From a virus, in the IMG/VR virus record IMGVR_UViG_3300035682_001501, positions 1 to 36,392 of that record: a stretch of DNA of 36,392 nt; one strand, given 5' to 3'. Both the position numbers and the translations under genes were made by a program. Position 1 is the stretch's first letter, and each line of letters begins with the position of its first letter. The notes beneath the pieces were generated by a model that was not told the origin of the DNA, did no database searches, and was given only the letters and a program-made list of their open reading frames with translations. Positions 5,698 through 34,461 of this stretch are shown here, piece by piece.

Positions 5698-5811
5698 CAG
5701 GATGATTGATGGGTATAGTTGTAAATATTGCCAGTGGACTATGACTGTAATCAACCCACTCTAAAAATTCTGCACAGTCATCAAACTCGCTCATACAACA
5801 GGGGACAAGAG

Positions 5812-13420: not shown

Positions 13421-13651
13421 ATGGACGATCAATATACTTTTAACAAAAAGGGACTTTTTGTTAGAGTTATGAATGGTAACCTGGAAGGTGCATTGAGCCG
13501 CCTCAAGAGGCTAATGAATCAGGAAGGTATTACCAAAGAGTTGCGCAAGCGTAGGTTTTATGAAAAGCCCACCACCAAGCGCCGCCGCAAAAAAGCTGAA
13601 GCCAGAATTCGTTGGTTGCGAAAAAAAGCCATATTGGATCCCTGGGCATAA
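13421..13651 (+). CDS. rpsU: Ribosomal protein bS21
   Basis: 76 aa. The family signature is clear: FVRVMNGNLEGALSRLKRLM, then GITKELRKRRFYEKPTTKRR and a basic C-terminal helix. bS21 sits on the 30S platform beside the anti-Shine-Dalgarno helix and helps mRNA binding at initiation. AGAAGG lies 9 nt before the ATG. Phage-encoded bS21 is known from marine and huge phages. Here it pairs with phage IF-3 2 kb upstream. The first 10 residues (DDQYTFNKKG) differ from bacterial forms. Confidence 0.95.
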   Translation: MDDQYTFNKKGLFVRVMNGNLEGALSRLKRLMNQEGITKELRKRRFYEKPTTKRRRKKAEARIRWLRKKAILDPWA

Positions 13652-13776: not shown

Positions 13777-13804
13777 CACCAAACAGTTATTGGAATTGAT
13801 GCCA

Positions 13805-14822: not shown

Positions 14823-14847
14823 ATTCAAACATGCGGTGCAATTTAAA

Positions 14848-15846
14848 ATGAAATTATGGGATCTTTTGGAAAACTCCTCTCTCCTGCAGCCTGGCGAGAA
14901 AAAAATCAGAGATGATCTATCTCTACGCAGAGCACAAGACATCCAGAATAAAATTGATCAACTGCTGGACAGTTTGGCATCCAGCGAAAGTTTGAGCAGC
15001 ATGTTCCAGAAAGATCAACAATTACAGGACAGTCTGGAAAAACTCAAGAAACGCATTGATCTCAAGGTGTCCTATTTGCAACGCATGCAACTGCGTCCTG
15101 ACAACGGTATGACCAGAATGTTTGCCATTCTGGACAGAGAGTGCAGTGACTTCCTGCCTGTGATGAAAGTCACTGGCAAAATGTTGTACAGAGGGTTGAG
15201 AACAGATGTGAGTGTTTTTGAAGGTCGCAGCAGAGAAGACAGAGCACCCAAGGACAGCAGAACAGAGATCAGCAACAGACTGGATCAAGCTCTGAGAAAC
15301 CATGGCTTCCAAGCACTGAGAAGCAACAGCATTTTCACCACCACCAGTCGTGATTTTGCCAGTAATTATGGTAGCCACATATATTGTATTTTTCCCAAGA
15401 ATGGAGTTCATGTGCTCACCACAAATGTCGGGGATTTGATACTCAGCAGTTATGATTCACTTGTGGGTGCTGGCTGGCAGGACAATTTCATGATCTCATT
15501 GAGAAATTGGTTGATGGATAATGTGCCGGAATGGCGAGATACTCCCCTGGGCAAGGAAATCAGTGGGTACAATTATGATGATGATGTGTTTTGGGAAATC
15601 CAGAACAATTTCAACGATGGCAATCCTCTAAAATTACCAGATGAGTTCAACAAAACCAAAGAGGATTTGCTCTCAGATGAGGCTATCATGAACCACCTGG
15701 AACCCAGATCAGACGATCTGGAAAATGCCATGATAGATGGCAGAGAAATTCTCATCAATGGCGAATATTGGGCCCTGAGATTGGATCAATGGAAACAATA
15801 TATTATTGATCGCTACCTGGAAGGCAACGATCCAAACCCTTGGTAG
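14848..15846 (+). CDS. ART-like late phage protein, paralogue 2 (332 aa)
   Basis: The start at 14848 gives MKLWDLLENSSLLQPGEKK; a GTG at 14836 is possible but less likely. It is a clear paralogue of the preceding gene over its full length (LEKLKKRIDLKVSYLQRMQ, then LDRECSDF). The putative catalytic set is complete here: MLYRGLR (Arg), RSNSIFTTTS (Ser-Thr-Ser-like) and EILINGEYWAL (Glu pair). That is the R-S-E order of mono-ADP-ribosyltransferases. Such proteins in T4-type phages can be packaged in the head and injected to modify host proteins; whether this one is cannot be seen. It is followed 3 nt later by a convergent kinase gene. Confidence 0.72.
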   Translation: MKLWDLLENSSLLQPGEKKIRDDLSLRRAQDIQNKIDQLLDSLASSESLSSMFQKDQQLQDSLEKLKKRIDLKVSYLQRMQLRPDNGMTRMFAILDRECSDFLPVMKVTGKMLYRGLRTDVSVFEGRSREDRAPKDSRTEISNRLDQALRNHGFQALRSNSIFTTTSRDFASNYGSHIYCIFPKNGVHVLTTNVGDLILSSYDSLVGAGWQDNFMISLRNWLMDNVPEWRDTPLGKEISGYNYDDDVFWEIQNNFNDGNPLKLPDEFNKTKEDLLSDEAIMNHLEPRSDDLENAMIDGREILINGEYWALRLDQWKQYIIDRYLEGNDPNPW

Positions 15847-16906: not shown

Positions 16907-16979
16907 GTGAACATAGTGTTCACAGTGAGTGCCTAATGAGGGCTCACATATAAATCTCGCTTTATCAAGGAGAATCAAC
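16907..16979 (+). promoter_or_regulatory. ROSE-like RNA thermometer in the hsp20 leader
   Basis: Three stem-loops fit into the predicted leader. First is GTGAACA-TAG-TGTTCAC (16907-16923). Second is GTGAG...CTCAC with a further GCC/GGC pairing (16925-16947). Third, at 16955-16973, TCTC-g-CTT pairs with AAGGAGA and hides the whole Shine-Dalgarno with one bulged G and a 4-nt loop. The pairing UCGCU against AGGA with the G bulged is the hallmark of ROSE elements (UYGCU), the heat-opened switches before small heat-shock genes of proteobacteria. Recognised by pattern, not by folding software. Confidence 0.65.
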
Positions 16980-17450
16980 ATGCGTACAGCGACACTTTCA
17001 CTCGACAAGTATCTGGATGAACTCATGCGTGACCTCAACAGGTTCGCAGTGGGATATGAACCCACTTTCCGTGTTCTGGATCACATCCGCCACAACAGCA
17101 ATCAGGGCTTTCCCCCATATGATCTAGAAAAGATCAGCGACACTGAATTCCGCCTCAGCATGGCTGTGGCAGGATACAGTGCTGAAGATTTGGACATCAC
17201 AGAACATGATGGTGTGCTCACTGTCACAGGCAGAGTACAAAAGGATGATGCCAGGACCTTCCTGCACAAGGGCATCGCAGGCAGAAACTTCACCAGAATC
17301 TTCTACCTGGATCAATATGTGTATGTGACTGACAGTGATCTCAACAACGGGGTCTTGACCATCAATTTCCGCAAGGAAATTCCCGAAGCTCTCAAGCCAC
17401 GCAAAATTGCCATTGGCAATGCACTTGCCTCACCAGCCATACAAGGCTGA
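16980..17450 (+). CDS. Small heat-shock protein Hsp20 (IbpA type)
   Basis: 156 aa. The start at 16980 follows AAGGAG by 7 nt; the frame further upstream is leader. The N-terminal arm (LDKYLDELMRDLNRFAVGYE) leads to an alpha-crystallin domain: FPPYDLEKISDTEFRLSMAV, GYSAEDLDITEHDGVLTVTG, IAGRNFTRIFYLDQYVYV and the closing GVLTINFRKEIPEALKPRKI. The C-terminal I-x-I-type anchor is present as KIAI. It resembles IbpA-class proteins of proteobacteria and the Hsp20 of T4-like cyanophages. It likely protects newly made phage proteins from aggregation. The leader looks like a thermometer. Confidence 0.92.
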   Translation: MRTATLSLDKYLDELMRDLNRFAVGYEPTFRVLDHIRHNSNQGFPPYDLEKISDTEFRLSMAVAGYSAEDLDITEHDGVLTVTGRVQKDDARTFLHKGIAGRNFTRIFYLDQYVYVTDSDLNNGVLTINFRKEIPEALKPRKIAIGNALASPAIQG

Positions 17451-18115: not shown

Positions 18116-18436
18116 GTGAGTAATAGTCAATCAACAACACAAACTGTAGAGAAAACCACCACCAAGGTGCAGCCTCCCAGCATGTTTGATGTTATTTTTT
18201 ACAACGACAACAAAACCTATTTTGAGTTTGTTGTGCTGATCCTCATGCAATTTTTCAACAAAGATCTGGATCAAGCAACAGAAATCACACATTTGATTCA
18301 CCAAAAGGGCAGAGCACCAGTGGCCACCTACACGTATGAAGTGGCTGCTGCCAAGCGTGATGAAACTGTGGCCACAGCCAGGGCCAATGGTCATCCCCTG
18401 CGTGTGGAAATTGAACCCCAGGGAGAACAATCATGA
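18116..18436 (+). CDS. clpS: ClpS-like protease adaptor
   Basis: 106 aa, GTG start 7 nt after AGGAG. After a disordered N-terminal ~20 residues the ClpS fold is plain: PSMFDVIFYNDNKTYFEFVV (usual VNDDyTpMEFV), FFNKDLDQATEITHLIHQKG and TYTYEVAAAKRDETVATARA. ClpS delivers N-end-rule substrates to ClpA (or ClpC). The His of the substrate pocket is kept (LIHQKG), the second Asp of NDD is Asn, and the usual gate Met is Phe, so substrate preference may be changed. It overlaps dut by ATGA. With the phage ClpX it suggests redirected proteolysis. Confidence 0.88.
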   Translation: MSNSQSTTQTVEKTTTKVQPPSMFDVIFYNDNKTYFEFVVLILMQFFNKDLDQATEITHLIHQKGRAPVATYTYEVAAAKRDETVATARANGHPLRVEIEPQGEQS

Positions 18437-19984: not shown

Positions 19985-21709
19985 GTGACCAAGACTGTAA
20001 CACTAGAGACTGTTCCCATGGAAATCAAGTCTGCCAAGACCGCCAAGTCTGCCAAAACCGCTGCTACACGCGCCTACAATCTGGTAACCACAGAAGATGG
20101 TGGTGAAAAGATGGTTGAACTCAAGAACGACCGATTGATTACTGCTCTTCGAGATTGCACTCGTGAGATCCCCAACCTGTATGATCGCGAACCTGTTGTG
20201 AGCATTGCAGATCTGTTCTATGAGCTCTCCAGTCTGGAACATGAGCTGCAACACAACAGTCGCACTCCTGGTCTGCGAGACCTGGTGAACCTGGTGCGCG
20301 CTGAAAATCAGCAGTACTTGGAGCAGGTGAACAACATGGTGACCCGTGGTGTGCTGAACTTTGCAGGCCTGCGCATGCTGCTGTCTCCTGGCAAGGAGAT
20401 TGTGATCCATGGCAATCATCTGCAGGGTGCTCGCATCTGTGATGTCACCTATCGCTCCAGCTTTTTTGGCACCTACCTGGAAGTGGAATACGAATACATC
20501 ACCTGCACTGGCAACAAGTTTGGCATTGCTCGTGACAGTGCTCAGGTGGATGCCTTCAAGGGCGTCAAGGACATCAACAGCCTCAACATCACACTGATCA
20601 CCGAGGCACAGAAGCGAGAGCTTGCCCAGCGTGGTGCAGCGTATGAAAAGCTGGCAGTGGGCAGCCACTACAAGCAGTTCACTGGTCACATGGATGTCAA
20701 GAAGTGGTCGTATTGGACGCCCATGCGTGCCACTGGCCGCATCATGGTGGACCTCACCACCTACGATCAGTTCCAGGATGGTGGCCGCATGCGACGCAAC
20801 AGCGAAAACAACACCATGGCCACCATTCCTGCAGATCAGCTGTGGATGACTGACCCTTACGTTCAGGGCTTCAGCTTCATGGCCAAGCAGTGGGGACGTT
20901 TTGCAGTGAGTGACATAACTGACATTGAGTTCCGCACGGAGGCATATGATCAGCTGGTGATGGATCCTGAGAAGAAGGCCATGATCCGTGCCCTGGTGGA
21001 AGACAACAGTGGCGGGTTCAGCGATATCATCAGCGGCAAGGGCGGTGGTTGCATCTTCCTGTTGCATGGTGATCCTGGTGTGGGCAAGACCCTCACAGCA
21101 GAAAGTGTGAGCGAACTGCTCCAGCGTCCGCTCTACAGCGTGGCAGTAGGCGAGCTGGGCACAGACACTGCTCAGCTGGAGAAGAGCCTGCGTCAGATCC
21201 TGGATGTGGCTCAGATCTGGAATGCTGTGATCCTCATCGACGAGGCTGACATCTTCCTGGAGAAGCGCGGACATGGTGATATTATGCGCAACAGTTGCGT
21301 CAGTGTATTTTTGAGGTTGACTGAATACCATCAGGATGTGATGTTCCTCACCACAAACCGGGTTACTGAATTTGATCCTGCATTTTATAGCAGAATCAGT
21401 GTTGCGCTCAAATACGACAAGTTGACACCTCTTAACCGACGTCAGGTATGGCAGAACCTACTCTCAGCATCTGGTATGCCCACAAATATTGATGTGGACA
21501 AACTGTGCGTTCATGAGATTAATGGGCGGCAAATTAAGAATTCCATCAGACTGGCTCGAAGCTTGGCCAAGAGTCAGGGAGTGGAAGTCTCCACTGAACA
21601 CCTTGAACAAGTATTACTCATGAGTGCTCAGTTTTTGGAAGACATCAAATACCCTTGTTTATCCTGCGTCCGGGAGACCAACCATCTCCCGGACATTCTA
21701 TACTCATGA
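19985..21709 (+). CDS. Large AAA ATPase with N-terminal regulatory domain, replaced 3' end
   Basis: 574 aa, GTG start. A helical N-terminal part (residues ~45-210) and a middle domain (YKQFTGHMDVKKWSYW, GRIMVDLTTYDQF, LWMTDPYVQGFSFMAKQWGR) precede one AAA module: Walker A HGDPGVGKTLTA near 360, Walker B AVILIDEADIF near 410, and LTTNRVTEFDPAFYSRISV with the Arg finger. The middle domain plus AAA module resembles a family best known from fungal AAA proteins of unknown function, and also seen in phages. From about 21275 codon use switches from G/C-ending to AT-rich codons, and the C-terminal ~20 residues run antisense into homing endonuclease 3. The 3' third is probably a recoded replacement. 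Confidence 0.85.
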   Translation: MTKTVTLETVPMEIKSAKTAKSAKTAATRAYNLVTTEDGGEKMVELKNDRLITALRDCTREIPNLYDREPVVSIADLFYELSSLEHELQHNSRTPGLRDLVNLVRAENQQYLEQVNNMVTRGVLNFAGLRMLLSPGKEIVIHGNHLQGARICDVTYRSSFFGTYLEVEYEYITCTGNKFGIARDSAQVDAFKGVKDINSLNITLITEAQKRELAQRGAAYEKLAVGSHYKQFTGHMDVKKWSYWTPMRATGRIMVDLTTYDQFQDGGRMRRNSENNTMATIPADQLWMTDPYVQGFSFMAKQWGRFAVSDITDIEFRTEAYDQLVMDPEKKAMIRALVEDNSGGFSDIISGKGGGCIFLLHGDPGVGKTLTAESVSELLQRPLYSVAVGELGTDTAQLEKSLRQILDVAQIWNAVILIDEADIFLEKRGHGDIMRNSCVSVFLRLTEYHQDVMFLTTNRVTEFDPAFYSRISVALKYDKLTPLNRRQVWQNLLSASGMPTNIDVDKLCVHEINGRQIKNSIRLARSLAKSQGVEVSTEHLEQVLLMSAQFLEDIKYPCLSCVRETNHLPDILYS

Positions 21710-22541
21710 CACTTTTTTGACCGTTAGTCCACCAAGTACCAAAGGATATGCGACCTGGTTGAAACTCCTCTCCTGGTTTATCCACACTACGGATGTTTTT
21801 GATTCCATTGTTCCACCAGGTGGCAGGACATTCTTGCCACCTCTTGGTTTGTGATATACGTTGTGCCTCCAGGTATTCGGGATTTTGAACTCTCTTTTGA
21901 GCTGCTGATCTACTCTTCTGTCTTGTTGCGTCACTTCTTTTTATCCCCGTCAAAGCTTGCGCAATTTTGTGCCTTACTTCCGGCCTTGCATTGCATTTGG
22001 TTGACTGTTCACTTCTCTTCAATCGTGCATCCGGATTGGTGAACAATTGTTTAAGCCCTTTTGAGATGTTCTCATTATGTTCTGTGCTGTTGGCAATACC
22101 CTTGCCGGCAAGGCTCAAGATGAGCCTTGCCTCAGGAGAAGGAGGTGCCTTCCTCCTTTGTGATGCACAATTCTTTTGTCTATAATCTGGTCTTAACCAT
22201 CTGGCTTTGGCTTCAAGAGACCTTTGTTGGCGCTGTTCATCTGTTATCTGACGTTGAAATCCTCTGGATCCTCTTCCGCCCAAACTTATATTGTATACGT
22301 CTGGCCTACTAATCCAGTCTTGATCTACAAATATAGCCTCTGCTGCCCACATAGCATCATAATCAAAGGCCATGTATATTATTTCTCTGGAGAATTGATG
22401 CTTGCCATATTTGCGCATAGCCTGTTTGAGGTTAGTACCACTGCCTAGGTACCCATAATTTAGGTCTTCACAGACATGTGCGCCTCTATATTTTTTTCCA
22501 TTGATTTGATTGGTAGTTTCATATATTATATAATATATCAT
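21645..22541 (-). CDS. GIY-YIG homing endonuclease 3
   Basis: 298 aa, antisense. The start at 22541 (MIYYIIYETTNQINGKKYRG) follows AAAGGAG. GIY-YIG features are YYIIYETTN, then YRGAHVCEDLNYGYLGSG and the catalytic-type GKHQFSREII. The C-terminus has two copies of a WWxNGxKs..S...PG....PGR motif (WWNNGIKNIRSVDKPGEEF and WWTNGQKSVMSIECPGDGW), also present once in homing endonuclease 2. The last 65 bases overlap the AAA gene's 3' end in antisense. The DNA for PGDGWSPG forms a 10-bp GC-rich hairpin (21668-21694) that may act as a terminator for both genes. Confidence 0.87.
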   Translation of the reverse strand: MIYYIIYETTNQINGKKYRGAHVCEDLNYGYLGSGTNLKQAMRKYGKHQFSREIIYMAFDYDAMWAAEAIFVDQDWISRPDVYNISLGGRGSRGFQRQITDEQRQQRSLEAKARWLRPDYRQKNCASQRRKAPPSPEARLILSLAGKGIANSTEHNENISKGLKQLFTNPDARLKRSEQSTKCNARPEVRHKIAQALTGIKRSDATRQKSRSAAQKRVQNPEYLEAQRISQTKRWQECPATWWNNGIKNIRSVDKPGEEFQPGRISFGTWWTNGQKSVMSIECPGDGWSPGRRINKGI

Positions 22542-22606
22542 GCTGAATGCTCCTTTCAAGCGTTTAGAGCAGTTGGGATGGTTCAGATCCGCGAACTGCA
22601 CACTTA

Positions 22607-24126: not shown

Positions 24127-24129
24127 ATA
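24123..24129 (+). promoter_or_regulatory. Late-type CTAAATA box
   Basis: CTAAATA at the end of the 81-aa gene; predicted start near 24135 leaves an 18-nt leader containing GGGAG before the ATG at 24153. Confidence 0.6.
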
Positions 24130-24152
24130 TGTGCAGCCCGGGAGTTGCATAT

Positions 24153-25043
24153 ATGAAAGCCAGAGATTTGCTGTGTGAAGATGTTGATAATGTTGGTAAA
24201 CCCAAAAATAACCCCATATCACTTGCCAAGTTAAAACCAGATACTCTAGAGCCTGGCAGCAAACAAACCATAAGAATCACAGGCAGCACTAAAAACCTAT
24301 TCCAGAAAATCAGCGAAGATTGTGCTGAATACATCCGTGTTGTGCAGGAAACCAACCAATTCCTGTTGCGAGGCGGCACGGGCCCAGATGCCTTTTTGGG
24401 CAGGAGTTGGTTGGCTAGGAAACCCAAAGACAGCAACAAAGAAGCTGCACAATTGTTTGATGACATGTTACGCAAAAGTGGCATGACTGCACTGCGCAGC
24501 AACAGCATCTTTGCCACAACAGATGATAGGCTAGCAGAACAATTTGGCAACAAAATTTATCTGATATTCCCCATCTATGGCAAAAGTTCATTCACATACA
24601 CTAATAAACATGATGTTACCCTGGTGTTCCCTGAGGATGTGGGCGTAGATCAGAACAAAACAAATATTTACAGAGCCAAAGTGGCTGAATGGATCAAGCA
24701 ATTTCAGACAACTGATCTATACAATACTCTGCCCAATAACCGCAAAGAGATTGTTCAATCTTTGGAAGCTATGGCGAGGATCACAGTGATCACACATATA
24801 GCACGCCAACTGCAATTGGTACAAGACAGCAATAGTGCTATAGTAATTCCTGATGAATTAGTCAATCCCAATATAAGAGATTATATGTCGCATGAGGCAT
24901 TTGTGGACAAATATGAGCCCACAAATACAAATTTAGCTGTGGCCATGGAGGATGAACTGGAAGTGTATATACATGGCTTGTATTATGCACTCAACCGGGA
25001 AAAATATGGCTCATTGGCCCATGAATACTGGGAACTAGACTAA
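24153..25043 (+). CDS. ART-like late phage protein, paralogue 3 (296 aa)
   Basis: The start at 24153 (MKARDLLCEDVDN) follows GGGAG by 8 nt and fits the MK..DLL start of the family; the ATG at 24129 is inside the promoter. It shares with the copies at 13805 and 14848 the order ISEDCAEYIRVVQ, FLLRGGTGPDAFLGR (Arg), TALRSNSIFATTDDR (Ser motif), NKIYLIFPIYGK and the end VYIHGLYYALNREKY. The final Glu-rich motif is EDELEVYIHG. It lacks ~40 N-terminal residues of the others. The FLLRG...R..R.P.D and RSNSIF.T pattern is one I associate with T4-type phage late proteins of unknown role. Confidence 0.7.
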   Translation: MKARDLLCEDVDNVGKPKNNPISLAKLKPDTLEPGSKQTIRITGSTKNLFQKISEDCAEYIRVVQETNQFLLRGGTGPDAFLGRSWLARKPKDSNKEAAQLFDDMLRKSGMTALRSNSIFATTDDRLAEQFGNKIYLIFPIYGKSSFTYTNKHDVTLVFPEDVGVDQNKTNIYRAKVAEWIKQFQTTDLYNTLPNNRKEIVQSLEAMARITVITHIARQLQLVQDSNSAIVIPDELVNPNIRDYMSHEAFVDKYEPTNTNLAVAMEDELEVYIHGLYYALNREKYGSLAHEYWELD

Positions 25044-26056: not shown

Positions 26057-26423
26057 AGGATATGTGGGCTGGAGCCTGGATGAACAAACTAGGGACAAAC
26101 TGCTGGAACTGTTCCCTCCTGTTTATGAACGAGTGATTGCACACCACTGCACACTGAAGTTTGGCGTGGATGACAAATATCCCCTGCCCACAGCCACACA
26201 AGCTCAAGTTGTGGGCACTGTGGATGACCTCATGGGTGTTCAGGCACTGGTGCTCATGATTGATGGCAGCACCAGCAGGCCTGATGGCAGTGTGTATCAC
26301 ATCACCTGGAGTCTGGGACCTGGTCGCAAACCTGTAGACAGCAACAAAGTGATTGCTCATCAGGGCTACAAGCCAGTGTCGCCTGTGGCAATTGAAATGG
26401 ATCCCCAGTTCTTTGCCTTCTAG
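26049..26423 (+). CDS. 2H phosphoesterase-like protein, 124 aa
   Basis: Two H-x-T/S-type motifs typical of 2H phosphoesterases are visible: AHHCTLKFGV near residue 36 and YHITWSLGPGR near residue 86. The size fits a single-domain member. The superfamily cleaves cyclic phosphodiesters and 2',3'-cyclic ends; phages use members against host signals (Acb1 cuts CBASS cyclic nucleotides). Overall sequence does not look like Acb1 to me, so the target is open. It lies immediately before the curli cassette but has its own overlap with the upstream gene. Confidence 0.68.
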   Translation: MTKGYVGWSLDEQTRDKLLELFPPVYERVIAHHCTLKFGVDDKYPLPTATQAQVVGTVDDLMGVQALVLMIDGSTSRPDGSVYHITWSLGPGRKPVDSNKVIAHQGYKPVSPVAIEMDPQFFAF

Positions 26424-26465
26424 GCAACAGTACTTATCAACTAGATAACAACTTGCAGTTGCATG

Positions 26466-26471
26466 TAAATA
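26466..26471 (+). promoter_or_regulatory. Late-type TAAATA box for the curli cassette
   Basis: TGTAAATATTTCC, 36 nt before the csgF ATG. Predicted start near 26477; the leader carries AAGGAA. No other promoter is visible before the six-gene cassette. Confidence 0.6.
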
Positions 26472-26507
26472 TTTCCACGAAGAAATTGGTCTTCAAGGAA
26501 ATATTGC

Positions 26508-26948
26508 ATGCGACTGTGGGTTTATATTCTAGCCCTTGTGATCACCAGTGCTGCTCAGGCAGGTGAACTGGTACACAGTTTCAATAGTCCCAGCTTCACA
26601 GGTGTAGGCTATAGCAGCCATGTGCTGACTATTGAGCAATTGCAGATCCAGGGCCAGCAAAAGCAAAAAGACAAACAGGCACAGGAATTGGCAGCTCAGG
26701 AAAGAGCCAGACTCACCAATCCTGTAAACCAATTTGTGGGCAATTTGCAAAGTATAGTTTATCAGCAATTGGCCAAAAGGCTCAGCGAGGCAATTTTTGG
26801 TGAAAATCCCAGCAACAGTGGCAGTATCAGCTTGGGCGGCAATGTGATTGCCTATGCAAGAGTGGGCAATGACATAAATCTCACAGTTGTGGATACCTAT
26901 GGTAGTACCACCCGGGTTATCCTTCCCATTGGGAGTATTGCATTTTGA
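26508..26948 (+). CDS. csgF: CsgF-like curli assembly factor
   Basis: 146 aa. A signal peptide (MRLWVYILALVITSAAQA) is followed by the CsgF N-terminal signature GELVHSFNSPSFTGVGYSS, which in E. coli CsgF (TMTFQFRNPNFGGNP) plugs into the CsgG pore. A helical linker rich in Gln/Lys then leads to NPVNQFVGNLQSIVYQQLA and a strand-rich end (GGNVIAYARVGNDINLTVVD). CsgF couples secretion through CsgG to fibre nucleation at the cell surface. It is followed directly by csgG (adjacent, no gap), the usual partner. Confidence 0.88.
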   Translation: MRLWVYILALVITSAAQAGELVHSFNSPSFTGVGYSSHVLTIEQLQIQGQQKQKDKQAQELAAQERARLTNPVNQFVGNLQSIVYQQLAKRLSEAIFGENPSNSGSISLGGNVIAYARVGNDINLTVVDTYGSTTRVILPIGSIAF

Positions 26949-27779
26949 ATGGCAAAATCATGGATCAAATTGGCTATTGTATTACCCTGGATTTCTGCAT
27001 GTGCAACTGTAGCTACAATTGCCACAGTAACTGATCACGACATTACCAAACCTCCTGCTATCAGCAGTAGTAAATTTTATTCTCTCAATGAAAATCAACT
27101 GTTGCCACCCAGAGGTGGTCCCATCACTGTGGCTGTGTATAATTTTCAGGACAAAACTGGTCAACGCAAAGATACTCTAGGAGTTGCCAGCTTCAGCAGT
27201 GCTGTTACTCAGGGAGCCGAAGCCTATCTCATGCAAGCTCTCACAGAGGTGGGCAACCGTAGATGGTTCAGGGTGATTGAACGTGTGGGCATTGAAAGTT
27301 TGATCAAGGAAAGACAACTGATCCGTCAGATGAGAGAACTCTACCAGGGAGCCAATGCACAGCCTGTGCCTCCACTGTTGTTTGCAGGCTTGCTCATGGA
27401 AGGTGGAATCATAGGGTATGACAACAACACTCAAACAGGTGGAATGGGTGCAAGATTTTTGGGTATTGGAGGCAATACTCAGTACAGACAGGACACAGTC
27501 ACCATCAATTTGCGAGCAGTGAGCACCAGCAGCGGAGAAGTTTTGGTGAATGTCACAGTCACCAAAACCATCATGAGTTACATGGACAATGCTGGTGTGT
27601 TGAGATTCATAGATGCGGGTACCCGAGCTGTGGAGGCGGAAATTGGAGCCAGCATAAACGAAAGTCGCAATCAGGCCATACAAATTGCCATTGAAGCTGC
27701 TGTGATTCAATTGATAAAAGAGGGTGCCAACAAAGGTCATTGGGATTTTGACACACGAATTCAAGGAGCAATCAAATGA
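26949..27779 (+). CDS. csgG: CsgG-like curli secretion channel lipoprotein
   Basis: 276 aa, close to E. coli CsgG (277). Signal with lipobox WISAC. Strong matches to CsgG run throughout: ITVAVYNFQDKTGQRKDT, RWFRVIERVGIESLIKERQL, LLMEGGIIGYDNNTQTGGMG, ARFLGIGGNTQYRQDTVTIN and FIDAGTRAVEAEIGASINES. CsgG forms a nonameric outer-membrane pore that exports unfolded curli subunits. The constriction-loop region (Tyr/Asn/Phe in E. coli) maps to the stretch around FQDKTGQ. It overlaps the curlin gene by ATGA. No CsgE homologue is present. Confidence 0.95.
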   Translation: MAKSWIKLAIVLPWISACATVATIATVTDHDITKPPAISSSKFYSLNENQLLPPRGGPITVAVYNFQDKTGQRKDTLGVASFSSAVTQGAEAYLMQALTEVGNRRWFRVIERVGIESLIKERQLIRQMRELYQGANAQPVPPLLFAGLLMEGGIIGYDNNTQTGGMGARFLGIGGNTQYRQDTVTINLRAVSTSSGEVLVNVTVTKTIMSYMDNAGVLRFIDAGTRAVEAEIGASINESRNQAIQIAIEAAVIQLIKEGANKGHWDFDTRIQGAIK

Positions 27780-28456
27780 ATAAAACTGCTATACTACTGG
27801 CCCTCATGGGTGTTTGTATGATTGCCAGCACCAGTGAGGCAAATGAAGTTTATCTGGATCAACTGGGTAACAATTCAACCACAACAATCGAACAAGTGGG
27901 CACAGCCAACAAGGTGGGCTCTGGCACTGACAGGGCCAGCAGTGTGTCAGGCAACAGCGCCACCATCACTGTGAGACAGACTGGCACCACCAACCAGGCA
28001 CAATATGCTGTTGTAGGTGATACCAACACATATACTAGCACCGTCAACGGCAACAGCAACACAACCACAACCAAATGTGGTGGTATTGGTGTCACTGCCA
28101 CTGGCAGTTGCAGCAACAGCAGCATAACAGAAACCATCACAGGCAATGCCAACATGATCAGCACCACTGTGATTGGCACTGCCAATAGAACCAATACAGT
28201 GGTGACTGGCAACACCAACGCAATCACCACTGTTGTGGAAAGCAGCAATGCCAATGTTGCTGCCACACTGAATGGTGACAACAACACTGTCACAAACACA
28301 CTAGCTGGTGTTGCTGGAACTGGTCATATTCTGGCCATGAACATCACAGGCAGCAGCAACAATATTACAACTGTGCAATCAGGCAGCAATGCAACAACTG
28401 TAAACTTGAATGTGAATGGAACCAGTAATACATTTACTGTAAGAACCGGCAACTGA
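27776..28456 (+). CDS. Curlin-repeat amyloid subunit, CsgA/CsgB-like
   Basis: 226 aa with a signal peptide (MNKTAILLALMGVCMIASTSEA). The mature protein is built of short repeats: VYLDQLGNNSTTTIEQVG and ATITVRQTGTTNQAQYAVVG fit the curlin pattern (x-x-x-Q-x-G-x-x-N), and later ones keep G-N/D-x-N-T but replace Gln by Thr (VIGTANRTNTVVTGNTNAIT). Very rich in Thr, Asn, Gly and Ser. Expected to cross CsgG unfolded and assemble as a beta-solenoid amyloid. It overlaps csgG by ATGA. Confidence 0.88.
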   Translation: MNKTAILLALMGVCMIASTSEANEVYLDQLGNNSTTTIEQVGTANKVGSGTDRASSVSGNSATITVRQTGTTNQAQYAVVGDTNTYTSTVNGNSNTTTTKCGGIGVTATGSCSNSSITETITGNANMISTTVIGTANRTNTVVTGNTNAITTVVESSNANVAATLNGDNNTVTNTLAGVAGTGHILAMNITGSSNNITTVQSGSNATTVNLNVNGTSNTFTVRTGN

Positions 28457-28460
28457 TATC

Positions 28461-29462
28461 ATGCAACTTTTGCTAGCTGCTCTAGCATTTGTTGTAATAG
28501 GTTTTGCTGCTAGTGCTAATCCCATTGGAAATATAACAGAAATTACTGGATCTCCTGGCAACATCGAGAGATCTGGTAATTTGCTGGAAGCTGCTGTGAA
28601 CACATCCCTGGCCAACATGGATGTGATTGTCACTCAAAACGGCAGCGCCAAACTCAGGTTTGTGGACAACACCAAGATCAGCATCACTGAGCAGAGCAGA
28701 TTGGTTATTGATGAATATGTGTATGATCCCAGACAAGGAGACAACAGCAAAGTCACTCTCAGAGTGGGCATGGGCACAGTGAGATATGCCAGTGGCCAGA
28801 TAGCCAAAATCAATCAGCAGAAAGTGGATTTACAAACTCCCACAGCCAGTATTGCTGTGAGAGGCACAGATTTTTTCATGACTGTGGCTGAATCAGGAGA
28901 AAGTTTTGTTGTATTGGTTCCCAGTTGTGATCAGGCTGGTGTTTGCAGAACAGGCAAAATACAAGTGAGCAATCCAGCAGGTATGGTGGAACTGGACCAG
29001 CCATTTACAGCAACCACAGTTACCAATGCCCACACTCCGCCAACACCTCCCAGCAGAATTCAGGTCTCGGAAAGTAATATAAACAATCTCATGATTGTTG
29101 TTCCCCCACCAGGATTGAAAGGATTAGCCAAATCCTCAGCGTCTGGTTCTCAAGAAGCTAACCAGGATGCCCTTGTGGTTTCCAGCAAACCTGTGCACAA
29201 TCCCAATACTTCTGATGTGCCCTCACAACTGATAATGAAAGAATCAGTTGTGAACAAAAGCACAGCGGTGCCTATTGTGGTGGAAACCACCGCCACCGGC
29301 GCCACCACAGCCAGCAGAGCCACACCTGGATATGGACAAAGTTTTGTGAGATTTTTGGATGGCAGCACAGGAAATGTCACCATCAGTCACAATGGTGACA
29401 ATGCCACCACACAGGTGGGCACTGTGGGCGGAAACACATTTATCATAAGACCAAGTCCATGA
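28461..29462 (+). CDS. FecR-domain exported protein
   Basis: 333 aa with a signal peptide (MQLLLAALAFVVIGFAASA). Residues ~20-190 fit the FecR domain: GNITEITGSPGNIERSGN, ANMDVIVTQNGSAKLRFVDN, KISITEQSRLVIDEYVYDP and TPTASIAVRGTDFFMTVAES. FecR-domain proteins of this kind occur with curlin-like and CHASE2-cyclase genes in proteobacteria. The C-terminal third is low-complexity (Ser/Thr/Ala) and ends with curlin-like GSTGNVTISHNGDNATTQVG. Role is probably in assembly, anchoring or sensing of the fibre. It overlaps the next gene by ATGA. Confidence 0.82.
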   Translation: MQLLLAALAFVVIGFAASANPIGNITEITGSPGNIERSGNLLEAAVNTSLANMDVIVTQNGSAKLRFVDNTKISITEQSRLVIDEYVYDPRQGDNSKVTLRVGMGTVRYASGQIAKINQQKVDLQTPTASIAVRGTDFFMTVAESGESFVVLVPSCDQAGVCRTGKIQVSNPAGMVELDQPFTATTVTNAHTPPTPPSRIQVSESNINNLMIVVPPPGLKGLAKSSASGSQEANQDALVVSSKPVHNPNTSDVPSQLIMKESVVNKSTAVPIVVETTATGATTASRATPGYGQSFVRFLDGSTGNVTISHNGDNATTQVGTVGGNTFIIRPSP

Positions 29463-30721
29463 AGTTTTTGATAATATTCCTTGTGTTGTTGGTGTTTCCA
29501 GACTGTGCATCAGCAGATGCTGGATTAAATTATGTGATTTATGCAGGCACTGGTGCCACTCCCAGCAGATGCACCACATGCACTGCGCAATTGGCTTCAG
29601 GTACCCTTCCCACACTCAATTATGATTTTGGTGGAGGCAGCATTCTCAACAGTGGCAGAACCGACAGAGTAATCATTCACATCACAGGATATGTGCTTTG
29701 GCCTGGTGCTGGAGCACAATCAGTGACTTTTTATGATAGATCTGATGACGGATTCCATCTCACCGTCAACAACAGTGTGGTGATCAACAACTGGCAAGAG
29801 CAGGGGCCCAGCTATTACAATGGGTCAGGCACCATCACTCTGCAGGGCGGACAATATTATCCAGTGGAAATATGGTGGTATGAGAATGGTGGAGGTGCAG
29901 TCATGCAATTGAACTGGAACATTGGCAGTGGCATTGTGATTGTGCCCAGCAGTGCCTGGAGCACTGTGAGTCCTGTGAAACCCACAACTGAACAATCAGT
30001 GAGAATACTCACAAGAAAACAAGAACAATCCCTGCAATCTTCAGGAGTGTATGTGAGTCAACTGGGCAGCAACAACATGGTTCACATTGAACAAATGGCA
30101 GGCAACAACTTGGTGAGAGGCACCACAGATCAAAATGCTGTGATCAATGGAGACAGCAACACAGTGACCATCCTGCAAAATGGTGCCACAGCGAAACGAG
30201 TGGATCTGCACATCACTGGCAACAGCAATCAGGTGCAGGTGTTGCAGGGCACCACGTCTGCTGGGCAAGCATTGGCATCTGACAGCGGCGGACATTATGC
30301 CAGAACCAGCACAACTGGCAACAACAATATGCATACAGTTTTGCAGAACAATCAGGGTCAAACCAACAGTGGTCATTATGCGGAAACCACAGTCACAGGC
30401 AGCAACAACACAGTGAGAATCAGTCAAACTCAAGATGGCACCAAAACTGCGTTCCAGACCCTAAATGGTGACAGTAACATCGTGGCCTTGCAACAAACTG
30501 GCAATGGAACTCATTATTTGGACAGTCAAGCACAAGGTGGCCTCAACAACATCACAGTCACCCAAAGTGGCAACATGCCTCATGCTGCCAGGGTGCAAGC
30601 TGTGAACAATGGTGGCGCCGTCACCATAGAACTCAATCAAACCAGCAGTACCAGCCAAAACATAGAAATACAGCAAACCTGTATTGTGTTGGCTGGTTGC
30701 GCAGTGAGGATCAATCAATGA
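29459..30721 (+). CDS. PA14-like domain fused to curlin repeats
   Basis: 420 aa with a signal peptide (MKFLIIFLVLLVFPDCASA). Residues ~30-165 look like a PA14 carbohydrate-binding domain: SVTFYDRSDDGFHLTVNNSV, INNWQEQGPSYYNGSGTITL and YYPVEIWWYENGGGAVMQLN. From ~195 to the end come curlin-type repeats (VYVSQLGSNNMVHIEQMAGN, INGDSNTVTILQNG, TGNSNQVQVLQG, NGDSNIVALQQTGNG). It could be a fibre tip or nucleator that binds glycan, an adhesin displayed on the amyloid. The stop is ATGA-overlapped with the cyclase start. Confidence 0.85.
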   Translation: MKFLIIFLVLLVFPDCASADAGLNYVIYAGTGATPSRCTTCTAQLASGTLPTLNYDFGGGSILNSGRTDRVIIHITGYVLWPGAGAQSVTFYDRSDDGFHLTVNNSVVINNWQEQGPSYYNGSGTITLQGGQYYPVEIWWYENGGGAVMQLNWNIGSGIVIVPSSAWSTVSPVKPTTEQSVRILTRKQEQSLQSSGVYVSQLGSNNMVHIEQMAGNNLVRGTTDQNAVINGDSNTVTILQNGATAKRVDLHITGNSNQVQVLQGTTSAGQALASDSGGHYARTSTTGNNNMHTVLQNNQGQTNSGHYAETTVTGSNNTVRISQTQDGTKTAFQTLNGDSNIVALQQTGNGTHYLDSQAQGGLNNITVTQSGNMPHAARVQAVNNGGAVTIELNQTSSTSQNIEIQQTCIVLAGCAVRINQ

Positions 30722-32781
30722 ACAAACTCAAAAAAATATTCACTCATGTGCTGGGCTGTTTGTTGACCCTGGCACTACTCTTGGGCATGAGAATCTGGGA
30801 TCCCAGTTTTGTGGAAAGTGTGAGATTGAGATATTTTGATACTCTTATCACCAGCAAACCCACTACACAAAACAATCTGTGGGTGGTGAACATAGATGAA
30901 GCAGCCATAGATCATCATGGACAGTGGCCATTTGCCAGGGGTGTGTATGCAGATCTAATACAACAGTTGTATGAAAGAAATGCAGGTTTGGTTGTGTTTG
31001 GTGTGCTCATGAGTGAAGAGGACAGACAGGCACAGGATGTTCAATTAGAACAGGTGCTCAAACAGTTGCCCACTATTTTGGTGAGTGTGCCTGGCAATCA
31101 CAACAAAAACACAGCCAGGAAACCAGGGGCAGTGGTGATAAATGATGATTACCTGGATCGCATTCATGGCTATCCTGGCATCATTGCCAATATAGCCAGA
31201 TTGGAGCAGTCAGCAGCCGCAGTGGGCATTGCCAATCAGCTGCCTGAATTGGATGGTGTAAATCGTCGTGTGCCCCTGGTTGTAAGCATAAATCAAAATC
31301 TTTATCCCCATGTGAGCTTGGAAACCTTGCGCATACTGGCTCTGGACCGATCATTCCAGGTCAAACTAAATGCACAGGGAGTTGAAGCCTTGAGAATACC
31401 TCGCTTTGGACCCATCAACACTGACAGTCTGGGCAGGATCTGGATTGACTGGAGCCAGGGCTACCGCACTGCCAGCATGATGAATCTGCCTGAGGATTTT
31501 GAAGGGGCAGTTGTGATAGTGGGCGCCAGTGCCACAGCCGTGGCCAATCCAGTGGCCACCAGCATGGGCGCTAAATTTCCACAGGATGTTCAGGCAACTG
31601 TGATTGCCACACTGCTCAACCAAGTGTCCATTGATAGGCCTGATTATGCTGATGCAGCAGAAATACTCCTGAGTATAATAGCAGCAGCATTGCTGATTGT
31701 GCTGAGCAGATGGTTGTATGTGGGCATAGCTAGCATGATTGTGTTGTTGGCAGGCAGTATCTCTGGCAGCATGTGGCTGTATGCCACAGCCAGTGTCCTG
31801 ATAGATGTCACCTTTCCTGCACTGGTATTGATTTGTGTGGGATTGCATGTGTATGTTGTGAAATTCCTGACTGAATTCTTTCTCAAACAACAGATCAAAC
31901 GGCAATTTGGCAGTTATGTGAGTCCTGTGATTGTGGAACGCTTGCAGAAAAATCCAGAACTGATAAAATTGGGTGGCGAGGAAAAAATGCTCACAGCAGT
32001 GATGACAGACATGAGAAACTTCACTGGCTTGGGAGAAAAATATGACCAGGACGTGGAAGGCTTTACTGCCATCATGAATGAATACATGACAGCCATTGCA
32101 CAACCAGTGTTTGACAACAATGGTTGTCTGATCAAGTTTATTGGTGATGCCAGTTTGCACATTCATGGTGCCCCCTTGGATGATCAAAGACATGCCTATC
32201 ATGCTGTGAAAACCACAATTGAAATGATACAAGCTGTGCACCAGTTCAATCAAAAACTTGTAGCCAGTGGCAAGCCTCAAGTGGGCATGGGCGCAGGAGT
32301 CAACACTGGCAAAATATTGGTGGGCAACATTGGCAGCCAGGGTAAGATGGGATATGATGTGCTGGGTGATCCAGTGAGTGTGGCCAGCAGACTGGAAAGT
32401 CAAACCAAGGGGTATGGAGTTCTGGTGATTCTGGGGCCTGATACCTACCAGGCAGTCAAAGATGATTTCTTTTGTCTGGAACTGGATTGCATTGCAGTCA
32501 AAGGCAAAACTGTGGGACTGAACATTTATACGCCCTTGCTTAAGACTCCCAGGCAACACATGCCTCAATATCATCTGGCCCGAAACAAACACAATCTCAT
32601 GATGCACTTGTATAGAAATCAAAAATTTACACAAGCTAGGGAAATGTGTGATCAACTCATGGGCGAATTTGATCAACAAATGGATCTATATTATCAAATC
32701 TGGATTGAAAGATGTCAGCACATGAACTCACAGGATCTGCCCCAGGATTGGGACGGAATATACCGAGCCACCAGCAAATGA
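30718..32781 (+). CDS. CHASE2-domain membrane adenylate cyclase
   Basis: 687 aa; the start at 30718 overlaps the previous stop (ATGA). N-terminal membrane anchor, then a periplasmic CHASE2 domain (RLRYFDTLI near 40, VVNIDEAAIDHHGQWPF, then IDWSQGYRTASMM), three or so TM helices near 325-400 and a class III cyclase domain. In it MTDMRNFTGLG holds the first metal Asp, IKFIGDASLHIHG the Lys (adenine selectivity) and second Asp, and VLGDPVSVASRLES the transition-state region. There the usual Asn of VN.A.RLE is Ser while the Arg is kept, so activity may be lowered or changed. It closes the curli cassette and would make cAMP in response to an envelope signal. Confidence 0.92.
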   Translation: MNKLKKIFTHVLGCLLTLALLLGMRIWDPSFVESVRLRYFDTLITSKPTTQNNLWVVNIDEAAIDHHGQWPFARGVYADLIQQLYERNAGLVVFGVLMSEEDRQAQDVQLEQVLKQLPTILVSVPGNHNKNTARKPGAVVINDDYLDRIHGYPGIIANIARLEQSAAAVGIANQLPELDGVNRRVPLVVSINQNLYPHVSLETLRILALDRSFQVKLNAQGVEALRIPRFGPINTDSLGRIWIDWSQGYRTASMMNLPEDFEGAVVIVGASATAVANPVATSMGAKFPQDVQATVIATLLNQVSIDRPDYADAAEILLSIIAAALLIVLSRWLYVGIASMIVLLAGSISGSMWLYATASVLIDVTFPALVLICVGLHVYVVKFLTEFFLKQQIKRQFGSYVSPVIVERLQKNPELIKLGGEEKMLTAVMTDMRNFTGLGEKYDQDVEGFTAIMNEYMTAIAQPVFDNNGCLIKFIGDASLHIHGAPLDDQRHAYHAVKTTIEMIQAVHQFNQKLVASGKPQVGMGAGVNTGKILVGNIGSQGKMGYDVLGDPVSVASRLESQTKGYGVLVILGPDTYQAVKDDFFCLELDCIAVKGKTVGLNIYTPLLKTPRQHMPQYHLARNKHNLMMHLYRNQKFTQAREMCDQLMGEFDQQMDLYYQIWIERCQHMNSQDLPQDWDGIYRATSK

Positions 32782-33144
32782 TCAGGGGGTGCTGCTTTCA
32801 TCCACTTTGGCTGAACTCTTGGCACTGGGCATTTTGCCATCCAGGGGTTTGCTGATCTTGGTGGGAATCACATCAACCTTGGCCAAATCCTCTTGTAGAT
32901 CATCTTGCTTGTGATCATGCTTGAGTTCCTGAACCATGGTGAGTTTCTCTCTCAGTCTGATCAGATCATTGTCCAACATTCTGATCCTGTCGATCAGTGC
33001 AATCAATACTCTGTTGGCTTCACTCAGCACGGGCTTGACTTCTTTGGTGACCCAGGTCCACACATAGTGAATCATCCATCCCATGCCACCTGCAGCCACA
33101 ATGGGAAATCCATATTTGCTGATGAGTTCTGCCAATTGATCCAT
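32782..33144 (-). CDS. Small membrane protein with coiled coil (holin-like), 120 aa
   Basis: An N-terminal hydrophobic segment (YGFPIVAAGGMGWMIHYVWTWV) is followed by a coiled coil (LIALIDRIRMLDNDLIRLREKL) and a charged Lys-rich tail. This layout resembles BhlA/UviB-type small phage holins. The N-terminus is paralogous to the gene at 33722 (GFP-I-AAGG). It is convergent with the cyclase, starting at the very next base. Confidence 0.65.
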   Translation of the reverse strand: MDQLAELISKYGFPIVAAGGMGWMIHYVWTWVTKEVKPVLSEANRVLIALIDRIRMLDNDLIRLREKLTMVQELKHDHKQDDLQEDLAKVDVIPTKISKPLDGKMPSAKSSAKVDESSTP

Positions 33145-33158
33145 TTACTCTGTTCCTA

Positions 33159-33707
33159 TTAAAACCACAAAAACAATCCATTCAAACTCAGCAACAGTCC
33201 TGCTCCAGCCACTGCAAAACTGCCCCAGAACAAGGGCATGCTCACTGCCAGAATACTTGCACTCAACAGCACAATGGCCAATTGATAGGCAGTGCTGGCA
33301 TATCCAATCCAGGGACTGCGCAGTTTGGCCTCATCTCTTTCTGTTTCCAGTTTGCTGGCCTTCACAGCAATTTCACGCTTTTCTTCATTCATGCGTTGGG
33401 CTTCTGCCGCCAGTCTATCATGATCTGCACCAGTTGTTTGCACAGCAGCAGTTTCATAAATCACACCACGCACATTTTTGGCCTGATACCAACTCCACTG
33501 ATTGTTGGCACCAATGGTGTTGTTGAGTATCACACTGCTGAGCTTGCCACCATACCAGGCATTGAGTGCCAGCAACAGTGCAAACAAATTGATCACCAAG
33601 CCAGCCTTATCCTTGATCCTAGCCTCACGCTCTGACCTGCTGCCAGTGGCTGGTGCTTTGCTGCTTTTGGTAAACATTTTCAAGATGGTTTCCACCAAAC
33701 TACCCAT
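33159..33707 (-). CDS. DUF4337-like membrane protein, 182 aa
   Basis: Hydrophobic segments are near residues 35-55 (AGLVINLFALLLALNAWYGG) and at the C-terminus (AYQLAIVLLSASILAVSMPL, then VAGAGLLLSLNGLFLW). Between them is NNTIGANNQWSWYQAKNVRG and a coiled coil. The WSWYQAKN motif after an N-terminal TM is the mark of the DUF4337 family of bacteria. AAGGAATAAATC precedes the ATG. Role unknown; with its neighbours possibly an envelope or lysis set. Confidence 0.75.
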   Translation of the reverse strand: MGSLVETILKMFTKSSKAPATGSRSEREARIKDKAGLVINLFALLLALNAWYGGKLSSVILNNTIGANNQWSWYQAKNVRGVIYETAAVQTTGADHDRLAAEAQRMNEEKREIAVKASKLETERDEAKLRSPWIGYASTAYQLAIVLLSASILAVSMPLFWGSFAVAGAGLLLSLNGLFLWF

Positions 33708-33721
33708 GATTTATTCCTTGC

Positions 33722-34003
33722 TCAATCTCTGCGTGCGTCATCTTTGCCATTGGCACGCGCAATTCTGGTGACATCTGGTTTGACTCCTAGGGTATGGCTC
33801 ATGAGCACATCCAACCTGATAATGTCATGATTCATTGTCTTGACACGATTGTCCAGGGCCATGATTATGCCACCCAATCCCTTGATGCTGCTGGTGACTC
33901 CTGCCAGAATGAATTTGAGAGTTAGAAATACAAAATAACCAGCACCACCTGCGGCTGCGATGGGAAAGCCCACATCGCCTACAAATTTGAAAAATTCCAT
34001 CAT
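33722..34003 (-). CDS. Small membrane protein, paralogue of 32782 (93 aa)
   Basis: The start at 34003 (MMEFFKFVGDVGFPIAAAGG) is preferred. One TM helix (GFPIAAAGGAGYFVFLTLKFIL) is followed by an amphipathic helix (IIMALDNRVKTMNHDIIRLD). The ATG is exactly 6 nt after a minus-strand TAAATA and no Shine-Dalgarno is visible, so a leaderless mRNA is predicted. Related to the 120-aa protein in size and topology; holin-type function is a guess. Confidence 0.65.
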   Translation of the reverse strand: MMEFFKFVGDVGFPIAAAGGAGYFVFLTLKFILAGVTSSIKGLGGIIMALDNRVKTMNHDIIRLDVLMSHTLGVKPDVTRIARANGKDDARRD

Positions 34004-34008
34004 GCAAA

Positions 34009-34014
34009 TATTTA
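34009..34014 (-). promoter_or_regulatory. Late-type TAAATA box placing the start on the ATG
   Basis: Minus strand TTTAAATA-TTTGC-ATG. With the last A at -6, +1 is base 34003, the A of the start codon. Confidence 0.6.
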
Positions 34015-34064
34015 AAAATAGTCTATACAACAAAACTACTGTGATAACCAGGCAAAAATAACAC

Positions 34065-34092
34065 TTGACAATGGGAGATTTCATGCTATTGT
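34065..34092 (+). promoter_or_regulatory. Early-type promoter for the RlpA-like gene
   Basis: TTGACA, 16-nt spacer ending TGC, TATTGT. Full match to the local early consensus. Confidence 0.75.
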
Positions 34093-34113
34093 CGGTCTAC
34101 AAAGGAAACAATC

Positions 34114-34461
34114 ATGAACAAGTTGTGTGCATTTGTGACTGCTGCTTGGATTGCTGCCATACCTGATGCCTCTGCTGCCACAGTCACCAGCAGTTGGTAT
34201 GGTGCTGCCTGGAATGGCAGACCCACCGCCAGCGGCGAGATCTTCCATCATCGCAAACTCACAGTAGCGCATCGCACATTGCCCCTGGGCACCAGGGTGT
34301 TGATCACCCATGGCAAACGCAAAGTCTTGGCTCGTGTTAACGACAGAGGCCCCTATGTTCGCGGCCGAGGACTGGATGTTAGTCAGGCTGTGGCTCAGCG
34401 TTTGGGTTTCCAACACAAGGGACTGGCCAGGGTGCATGTGAAGGTTTTGCCCAAAAAGTAG
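34114..34461 (+). CDS. RlpA-like double-psi beta-barrel protein
   Basis: 115 aa with a signal peptide (MNKLCAFVTAAWIAAIPDASA). The mature part is a minimal RlpA/DPBB domain: TSSWYGAAWNGRPTASGEIF, LTVAHRTLPLGTRVLITHG, ARVNDRGPYVRGRGLDVSQA. RlpA enzymes are septal lytic transglycosylases acting on denuded glycan; the catalytic-type Asp residues (NDRGP, LDVS) are kept and the SPOR domain is missing. It could weaken peptidoglycan for lysis or for passage of the amyloid export pore. Own early promoter and AAGGAAAC before the ATG. Confidence 0.88.
   Translation: MNKLCAFVTAAWIAAIPDASAATVTSSWYGAAWNGRPTASGEIFHHRKLTVAHRTLPLGTRVLITHGKRKVLARVNDRGPYVRGRGLDVSQAVAQRLGFQHKGLARVHVKVLPKK

Follow-up and report, generated by a model that had tools for sequence, protein, structure and literature searches.

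The DNA analysed here, a 36,392-base IMG/VR virus record (IMGVR_UViG_3300035682_001501; 'the window' means this whole stretch), carries a further example, in another phage, of the known phage type VIII (curli) secretion module. Six plus-strand open reading frames (ORFs), with ATG starts and intact frames, occupy positions 26508–32781 in the order CsgF, CsgG, curlin-repeat protein, FecR-domain protein, PA14 plus curlin protein and CHASE2-cyclase (table 1), and this csgF–csgG–curlin–FecR–(curlin)–cyclase run on a phage genome assigns it to the module. The genes nearly abut, with gaps of 0, −4, +4, −4 and −4 nucleotides (nt) between them; the cyclase start is best placed at the ATGA junction, in preference to the ORF finder's upstream TTG at 30697. 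A model that had seen only the sequence (the original prediction) had proposed this six-gene cassette, with a curli-type export channel and its own membrane cyclase, and we confirm all of the ORFs and the families as named. The cassette does not, however, end with the cyclase as proposed: the six genes stand, but a minus-strand pair within 32782–34003, for which we coined the names TM-A and TM-B, belongs to it too.

Table 1. The curli module of the window, its membrane pair and the late-type boxes, with the best family matches (E-values).
Feature	Position	Strand	Evidence and remarks
T4-type late promoter-like box, TGTAAATA	26464-26471	+	36 nt ahead of csgF, well placed
CsgF, channel-associated secretion factor	26508-26948	+	PF10614 1.7e-17
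CsgG, outer-membrane secretion channel lipoprotein	26949-27779	+	PF03783 2.5e-52
Curlin-repeat protein, likely fibre subunit	27776-28456	+	PF07012 0.003, under Pfam cut-off
FecR-domain protein, predicted secreted, curlin-like C-terminal strands	28461-29462	+	PF04773 2.4e-10
Protein with a PA14 domain and curlin repeats, likely adhesin of the fibre	29459-30721	+	PF07691 2e-13
CHASE2 plus class III adenylyl cyclase-like membrane protein	30718-32781	+	PF05226 3.4e-35; PF00211 (Guanylate_cyc) 1.2e-16; phrog_35576 2.6e-187
TM-A, small membrane/coiled-coil protein	32782-33144	-	phrog_18771 1.8e-28
Optional DUF4337 membrane protein, encoded between TM-A and TM-B	33159-33707	-	PF14235 1.1e-27; in 8 of 49 groups
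TM-B, small membrane/coiled-coil protein like TM-A	33722-34003	-	phrog_18771 3.7e-31
Possible late-type box before TM-B, doubtful, TTTAAATA	34009-34016	-	just 5 nt from the TM-B start

Both CsgG and CsgF of the bacterial curli (csg) system are present in the window. The window CsgG aligned with the E. coli CsgG structures (1.1e-50), while CsgF is 36% and 35% identical to its counterparts in the phages HTVC008M and Melnitz, respectively; a CsgF profile built from three sequences matched nothing in the PDB. Stacked G-x-x-N strands of approximately 11 residues make up the first curlin protein, and its model (predicted local distance difference test (pLDDT) 89.1, predicted template modelling score (pTM) 0.83) consists of regular stacked strands. 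Profile searches placed CsgF and CsgG in their families directly, whereas the curlin repeats fall under the Pfam cut-off; when the first curlin protein and its relatives, 28 proteins in all, were combined into a profile, this matched the solved curlin-repeat protein 8c50 (9.7e-12) and, weakly, E. coli curlin 8enq (0.011). When a second aligner re-read the Foldseek list for the curlin model, it returned β-solenoid proteins, the highest Z-score being 17.9 (SufB/SufD), which are alike in shape alone; a solved curlin was absent among its 50 rows.

The phage origin of the stretch, also part of the original prediction, is well founded. Three other IMG/VR contigs span 26301–34200 with one mismatch each in 7,900 bases, although they may share a sampling site, and the window lies whole and colinear inside one of the three, which is 61,396 bases long. 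An assembly chimera was rejected on these grounds, and a bacterial host fragment on the strength of phage genes on both sides and the grouping of CsgG with phage sequences; the interval of 26.5–32.8 kb is therefore not a bacterial piece joined in assembly. The flanks match dUTPase, dCMP deaminase, three homing-endonuclease genes, QueD, Hsp20, IF-3 and ClpX, and rIIA, rIIB and a tail-spike-like gene lie on the same contig beyond the window. A T4 capsid gene was sought in the 61-kb contig, the only fragment by which this phage is known, and was not found. The GC content at third codon positions is 0.42–0.49 for the six module genes and 0.43–0.61 for ten flank genes, i.e. within or just under the range of the flanks, in agreement with the codon use predicted. 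That the module is inert bacterial cargo or a chimera is scarcely credible: the bacterial families and large accessory load would suit such an origin, but the window agrees with three contigs, the frames are intact, phage CsgG sequences fall together in the tree and the gene order is kept in many phage contigs, some of 200–349 kb with T4-type capsid genes.

This phage is unlike the cultured carriers of the module. Among 32 chosen other HTVC008M proteins, just S21 and Hsp20 match the window. No tRNA or tmRNA was found in the window and an Rfam search of it revealed no RNA element, so it has no glutamine riboswitch like that of Melnitz (PMC9004378).

A first IMG/VR scan confirmed 526 CsgG relatives; the best 80 of the 526, together with the window, HTVC008M and Melnitz, were grouped at 90% CsgG identity into 49 groups. 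As csgG was used to fetch the loci, its presence in 49 of 49 groups is a matter of selection; csgF is found in 49, FecR in 48, curlin in 48 and the cyclase in 41, some loci being cut. T4-type capsid genes were detected in 8 of 22 searched records, including all seven longer than 200 kb (202–349 kb), which indicates that large T4-like phages carry the module. By tblastn of 50,697 phage records, CsgG and CsgF were both found in HTVC008M (two record copies) and four Melnitz isolates, and CsgG was also found in one 1.5-kb fragment that has no annotation. GenBank OR851715.1, a 1.5-kb entry labelled Salmonella phage, has a CsgG gene 45% identical to that of the window and is likely contamination.

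In a quick CsgG tree of 76 rows, 51 phage sequences, five from phage-like contigs of metagenome-assembled genomes (MAGs) and two bacterial-labelled ones separate from 18 bacterial sequences with a Shimodaira–Hasegawa-like approximate likelihood-ratio support of 96, and the window CsgG groups with the other phage copies. Phage CsgG sequences fall together, but with two bacterial-labelled rows inside the group: L164 and L171, the latter a short Pirellulales contig. L164 is a 705-kb contig of a Hyphomonas MAG with csgF–csgG–curlin–FecR–cyclase, lacking the membrane pair and the curlin tail on FecR; it could be of the kind that donated the genes, or have gained them later. The five MAG contigs (L165, L167, L174, L197 and L212; Rhodobacteraceae, Flavobacteria and Sphingobacteriales) have phage-type curli genes together with TM-A/TM-B and are probably phage contigs binned with bacteria, a view based in part on the membrane pair itself and in part on where they fall in the tree.

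The TM-A/TM-B pair, judged by its linkage in sequence data, goes with the curli module. Both proteins are homologous to the two genes ahead of csgF in HTVC008M and Melnitz, with TM-B 63% identical to the Melnitz gene two genes ahead of csgF; the window's TM-B ORF extends to 34084, with the conserved start at 34003. Among the 50,697 phage records TM-B was found solely in the six that have csgF/csgG. Of the best 80 TM-B loci in IMG/VR, 73 have a curli-module gene (CsgG in 54) and seven do not; searches of these seven whole records (5–19 kb), made without a positive control, found no CsgG or cyclase. A second CsgG scan yielded 194 relatives, and in the best 80 of these the two genes are both present at all 69 loci (not dereplicated) with csgF and more than 1.5 kb of sequence ahead of it. 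Their placement varies: of 153 classed loci, which again were not dereplicated, 108 have TM-B upstream on the same strand, 28 have it downstream on the opposite strand, 12 have it between csgF and csgG and five have it elsewhere. In 20 records searched for the pair, it was present at the locus in three (L005, L032 and L044) and elsewhere in the record in seven of the other 17, one of these (L037) resting on a single hit at the contig edge. In the 10 of 17 where it was not found, the contig ends inside the module in nine, and in the tenth (L070) no cyclase was seen in the part examined. Among the best 80 bacterial-labelled CsgG loci only five have the pair, and all five are in the phage CsgG group.

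As to what these proteins are, all 13 TM-A proteins examined match phrog_18771, and a TM-B profile run against the PDB gave a best E-value of about 0.01, to a coiled-coil. Six TM-A/TM-B proteins of 92–120 residues matched neither a kinase family (HisKA, HATPase) nor a holin family in Pfam at E ≤ 1. PMC9599517 describes an 'HK', sometimes two, ahead of csgF; from its position, this is probably TM-A/TM-B.

A late-type promoter box ahead of the cassette, as originally predicted, is indeed present (table 1) and is a recurrent feature. Of 49 groups, 38 have the motif TAAATA within 120 nt ahead of csgF, compared with a mean of 8.35 after shuffling, and 24 of 34 have it ahead of TM-B (shuffled mean 5.55). 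Other genes have it less often, with 0/49 groups for csgG, 5/48 for curlin, 2/48 for FecR, 0/36 for the second curlin gene and 4/34 for TM-A, and the excess ahead of the cyclase is smaller (14 of 38 groups, against 5.4 in shuffles). Whether csgF has its own box varies with the location of the pair: among groups with an upstream, same-strand pair 4 of 12 have one, compared with 18 of 21 for a pair on the other strand and all 16 in which no pair is in the locus. The full TATAAATA is rarer than TAAATA ahead of csgF (6 of 49 groups), and the window has only two exact copies, both on the minus strand and away from the module. TATAAAT is taken as a T4-like late promoter sequence in PMC9004378, while late promoters could not be predicted in the phages of PMC7029224, according to that paper.

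From its sequence features, the FecR-domain protein looks like a secreted, fibre-linked component. A FecR anti-sigma regulator has a cytoplasmic part and a membrane segment ahead of its periplasmic domain, a layout that the window protein lacks: it has an N-terminal signal-like segment only. Of 133 distinct FecR proteins, a few of them from loci on bacterial-labelled contigs, 79 cleared the hydropathy cut-off for a signal segment, several of the failures being frames trimmed at the wrong Met; 130 show no further strongly hydrophobic segment and three have one. The last 45 residues contain a strict curlin-like motif in 31 of 43 FecR clusters (shuffled mean 2.5, maximum 7), compared with 2.8% of internal FecR windows, and 38 of the 43 have a loose form at the C-terminus, against a mean of 5.8 and a maximum of 15 in shuffles; these counts likewise include a few loci from bacterial-labelled contigs. 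In the model (pLDDT 80.7, pTM 0.59), a disordered linker joins the FecR domain to C-terminal strands, which span residues 257–329. Residues 51–211 resemble the PupR periplasmic signalling domain (Z-score 14.9, 135 residues aligned, 2.7 Å), while residues 19–95 show a weak likeness to the 'cell surface anchoring domain' 5ix9 (Z-score 6.6, 72 residues aligned, 1.9 Å). A bacterial biofilm operon with a secreted FecR protein and a CHASE2 protein is on record (PMC5192318).

These properties bear on the ideas, found in PMC7029224 and PMC9599517, that CsgG admits nutrients and that FecR is an iron-related regulator. The FecR domain match, the PupR likeness and the lack of a CsgE gate in 13 phage records would suit an uptake pore, but the FecR protein looks secreted, is mostly curlin-tailed and is unlike an anti-sigma regulator, and neither the late boxes nor the conserved curlin proteins would be explained. 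We consider this function highly unlikely.

The second curlin protein is, in sequence terms, one that swaps binding domains (PA14, F5/8C) ahead of a curlin tail. PA14 with curlin also occurs in HTVC008M gp018 and in L033, L019 and L078. Of ten second-curlin proteins scanned, three matched PA14, one F5/8C and eight the curlin repeat at E ≤ 0.01, with two giving no match; a PA14 or F5/8C domain precedes the curlin repeats in 4 of these 10, besides the window and HTVC008M. The FecR-to-cyclase gap in which this gene lies ranges from −43 to 6,250 nt over 94 loci.

The window cyclase retains the sequences MTDMRNFT, KFIGD and GDPVSVASR, and with them what we take to be the metal-binding Asp pair and the adenine-specifying Lys/Asp. 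The usual position of what is presumably the catalytic, transition-state Asn is Ser in both the window and Melnitz; over 102 full-length cyclases (not dereplicated) this position is Asn in 64, Ser in 33 and unread in five. A cyclic nucleotide-binding protein, i.e. a cyclic AMP (cAMP) receptor, was found in none of 13 phage records, by a search whose control was positive in 10 of 14 genomes.

The families and their order, the export-signal-like starts, the curlin-like tails, the late-type boxes and the linkage of the genes are read from the DNA itself, and from these we would sketch the following function. The module would be a phage type VIII secretion system turned on late in infection, in which CsgG with CsgF could form an outer-membrane channel. 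The curlin-repeat protein would pass through it and presumably polymerise at the cell surface; the FecR-domain protein and the PA14 protein may likewise be exported and, by means of their curlin-like strands, be built into the fibre, the former as its base or cap and the latter as a tip that binds carbohydrate. Such fibres might glue the dying cell, new virions and neighbouring hosts together and so make the next infection likelier, as in the 'sibling capture' of PMC7029224, and may additionally block rival phages. TM-A/TM-B would be a phage-specific part of the module in the inner membrane, and the cyclase could provide a host-side cAMP signal or sense the envelope through CHASE2. There is, in our estimate, about an even chance that amyloid fibres tipped with binding domains are made on the cell late in infection and hold cells or virions together. 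Of the functions suggested in the original prediction, coating and aggregation of infected cells fit best, while an exit route through CsgG does not: virion exit was rejected because PMC7029224 calls the pore too small.

Several observations weigh against such fibres. CsgE was found in none of 13 phage records, by a search that was positive in the E. coli control, which leaves the gating of the channel unexplained. The Pfam curlin repeat scores 0.003 and 0.0036 in the two curlin proteins of the window, under the cut-off, Foldseek found no match for the curlin model in the PDB at E ≤ 0.001, and the window's own FecR tail meets the loose motif only. Under the culture conditions of PMC9004378, Melnitz-infected cells showed no clumping in cytograms or transmission electron microscopy, and that paper holds Melnitz to be without fibre genes, although two curlin-repeat proteins are named in its GenBank record. 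Expression from a late promoter also leaves only a short time before lysis in which fibres could form. Finally, 8 of 13 TM-A proteins weakly match the holin PHROG 4898 (best 5.3e-05), a likeness that would favour lysis, with a BhlA/UviB-type holin as the candidate type.

The last point belongs to an extension of the idea in PMC9004378, whereby an outer-membrane pore of CsgG/CsgF and holin-like TM-A/TM-B would time the release of progeny. Besides the holin matches and the late boxes, TM-B sits between csgF and csgG at the 12 loci noted above, an RlpA-like lytic transglycosylase gene adjoins TM-B in the window and PMC9004378 argues for lysis timing from gene neighbours. But a pore requires no curlin, PA14 or curlin-tailed FecR protein, yet 48 of 49 groups keep FecR and 48 of 49 keep curlin; none of the listed clusters of five or more groups contains the RlpA-like neighbour, the annotated endolysins of HTVC008M do not adjoin its curli genes and the window's holin match spans TM-A residues 1–21 alone. 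A lysis module is accordingly unlikely in our view. The RlpA-like gene (34114–34461; PF03330, 5.2e-20) is divergent from TM-B, and we rejected it as a constant partner of the module given its absence from those clusters.

Surface masking, in which fibres or pore would chiefly exclude other phages and aggregation would be a side effect, draws on a parts list identical to that of the capturing fibres. Superinfection exclusion is suggested in PMC9599517, and variable binding domains could block different receptors; the late boxes, on the other hand, suggest expression at a time when exclusion is less useful, and we regard masking as the chief role as quite improbable. Returning to the capturing fibres, a broader proposal, which we put forward tentatively, is that diverse phages, including T4-like ones above 200 kb, share a dedicated fibre organelle expressed late. 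Alongside a phage-specific curli channel and its own pair of inner-membrane proteins, it would have a shaft of curlin, with curlin-tailed FecR serving as base or cap and with lectin tips that can be exchanged. It would be cell-borne and not virion-borne, a net capturing cells and virions whose tips evolve like tail fibres.

Phage curli modules are common, as the 526 CsgG relatives from one IMG/VR scan attest, and the published ideas on their function (sibling capture, lysis timing, exclusion and uptake) compete. The boxes, the membrane pair, the curlin-tailed FecR and the swapped domains allow sharper questions: where FecR goes, whether fibres appear before lysis and what TM-A/TM-B do.

Elsewhere in the window there are phage nucleotide-metabolism genes, namely the C-terminal part of PurM (27–362), CTP synthase (359–1960), PurN (1957–2538) and QueD (5728–6294), as well as ClpX (9488–10723), translation factor IF-3 (10723–11298), an S21-like protein (13421–13651) and Hsp20 (16929–17450). 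A small protein at 18116–18436, matching an 'ATP-dependent protease' PHROG and read as ClpS, belongs to a family present in 25 of 49 curli-bearing groups. Genes at 13790–14800 and 24129–25043 match phrog_11975, that at 14836–15846 looks by eye like a paralogue, and TAAATA boxes at 13771, 14817 and 24124 lie by these phrog_11975-type genes. The homing-endonuclease genes (6331–7032, a weak match, 11739–12467 and 21645–22601) are all on the minus strand. GC content climbs to 0.56 at 35–36 kb, and 36060–36361 matches, at 78%, sequence lying next to a transposase gene at the opposite end of the 61-kb contig (L250).

The original prediction held that no phage with a curli export channel had been described. 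This is incorrect, since the six genes are annotated, in identical order, in both HTVC008M and Melnitz, and several papers treat phage curli genes. The presence of csgF/csgG in pelagimyophages is reported in PMC7029224, the source of the sibling-capture proposal; in the description of Melnitz in PMC9004378, the role put forward is lysis timing, with a pinholin/secretin idea; PMC9599517 lists HK, csgF, csgG, csgA/B, FecR, csgA/B and AC in podo- and myophages, with expression in metatranscriptomes; and PMC7198788 and PMC9636769 mention viral curli genes. The membrane pair, the FecR tail, the distribution of the boxes and the swapped binding domains were not found in the open-licence PubMed Central passages searched, which exclude supplements.

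Bacterial curli (E. coli csg; Sphingomonadales and other Alphaproteobacteria) shares CsgG, CsgF and curlin repeats with the window but has the CsgE gate, which was not found in the 13 phage records. A cyclase lies near csgG in only 4 of the best 80 bacterial-labelled loci, three of them among the five contigs with the membrane pair and the fourth being L164. HTVC008M (NC_020484, 6900–13807), whose proteins are 29–44% identical to those of the window, shares the six-gene order, PA14 on the second curlin protein and TM-B/TM-A, but has the pair upstream on the same strand, whereas that of the window is convergent and downstream; in its cyclase the catalytic Asn is retained and the C-terminal part is missing. 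Melnitz (MZ577097; 26–43% identity) has the six genes in order, TM-B/TM-A (upstream) and the Asn-to-Ser change in the cyclase, and differs in a second curlin protein without the PA14 part and in T4-like baseplate genes downstream. The pelagiphage type VIII secretion system of PMC9599517, as described in its text, matches the window in genes and order, although FecR is read there as an iron-linked regulator and here looks like a secreted, fibre-linked protein.

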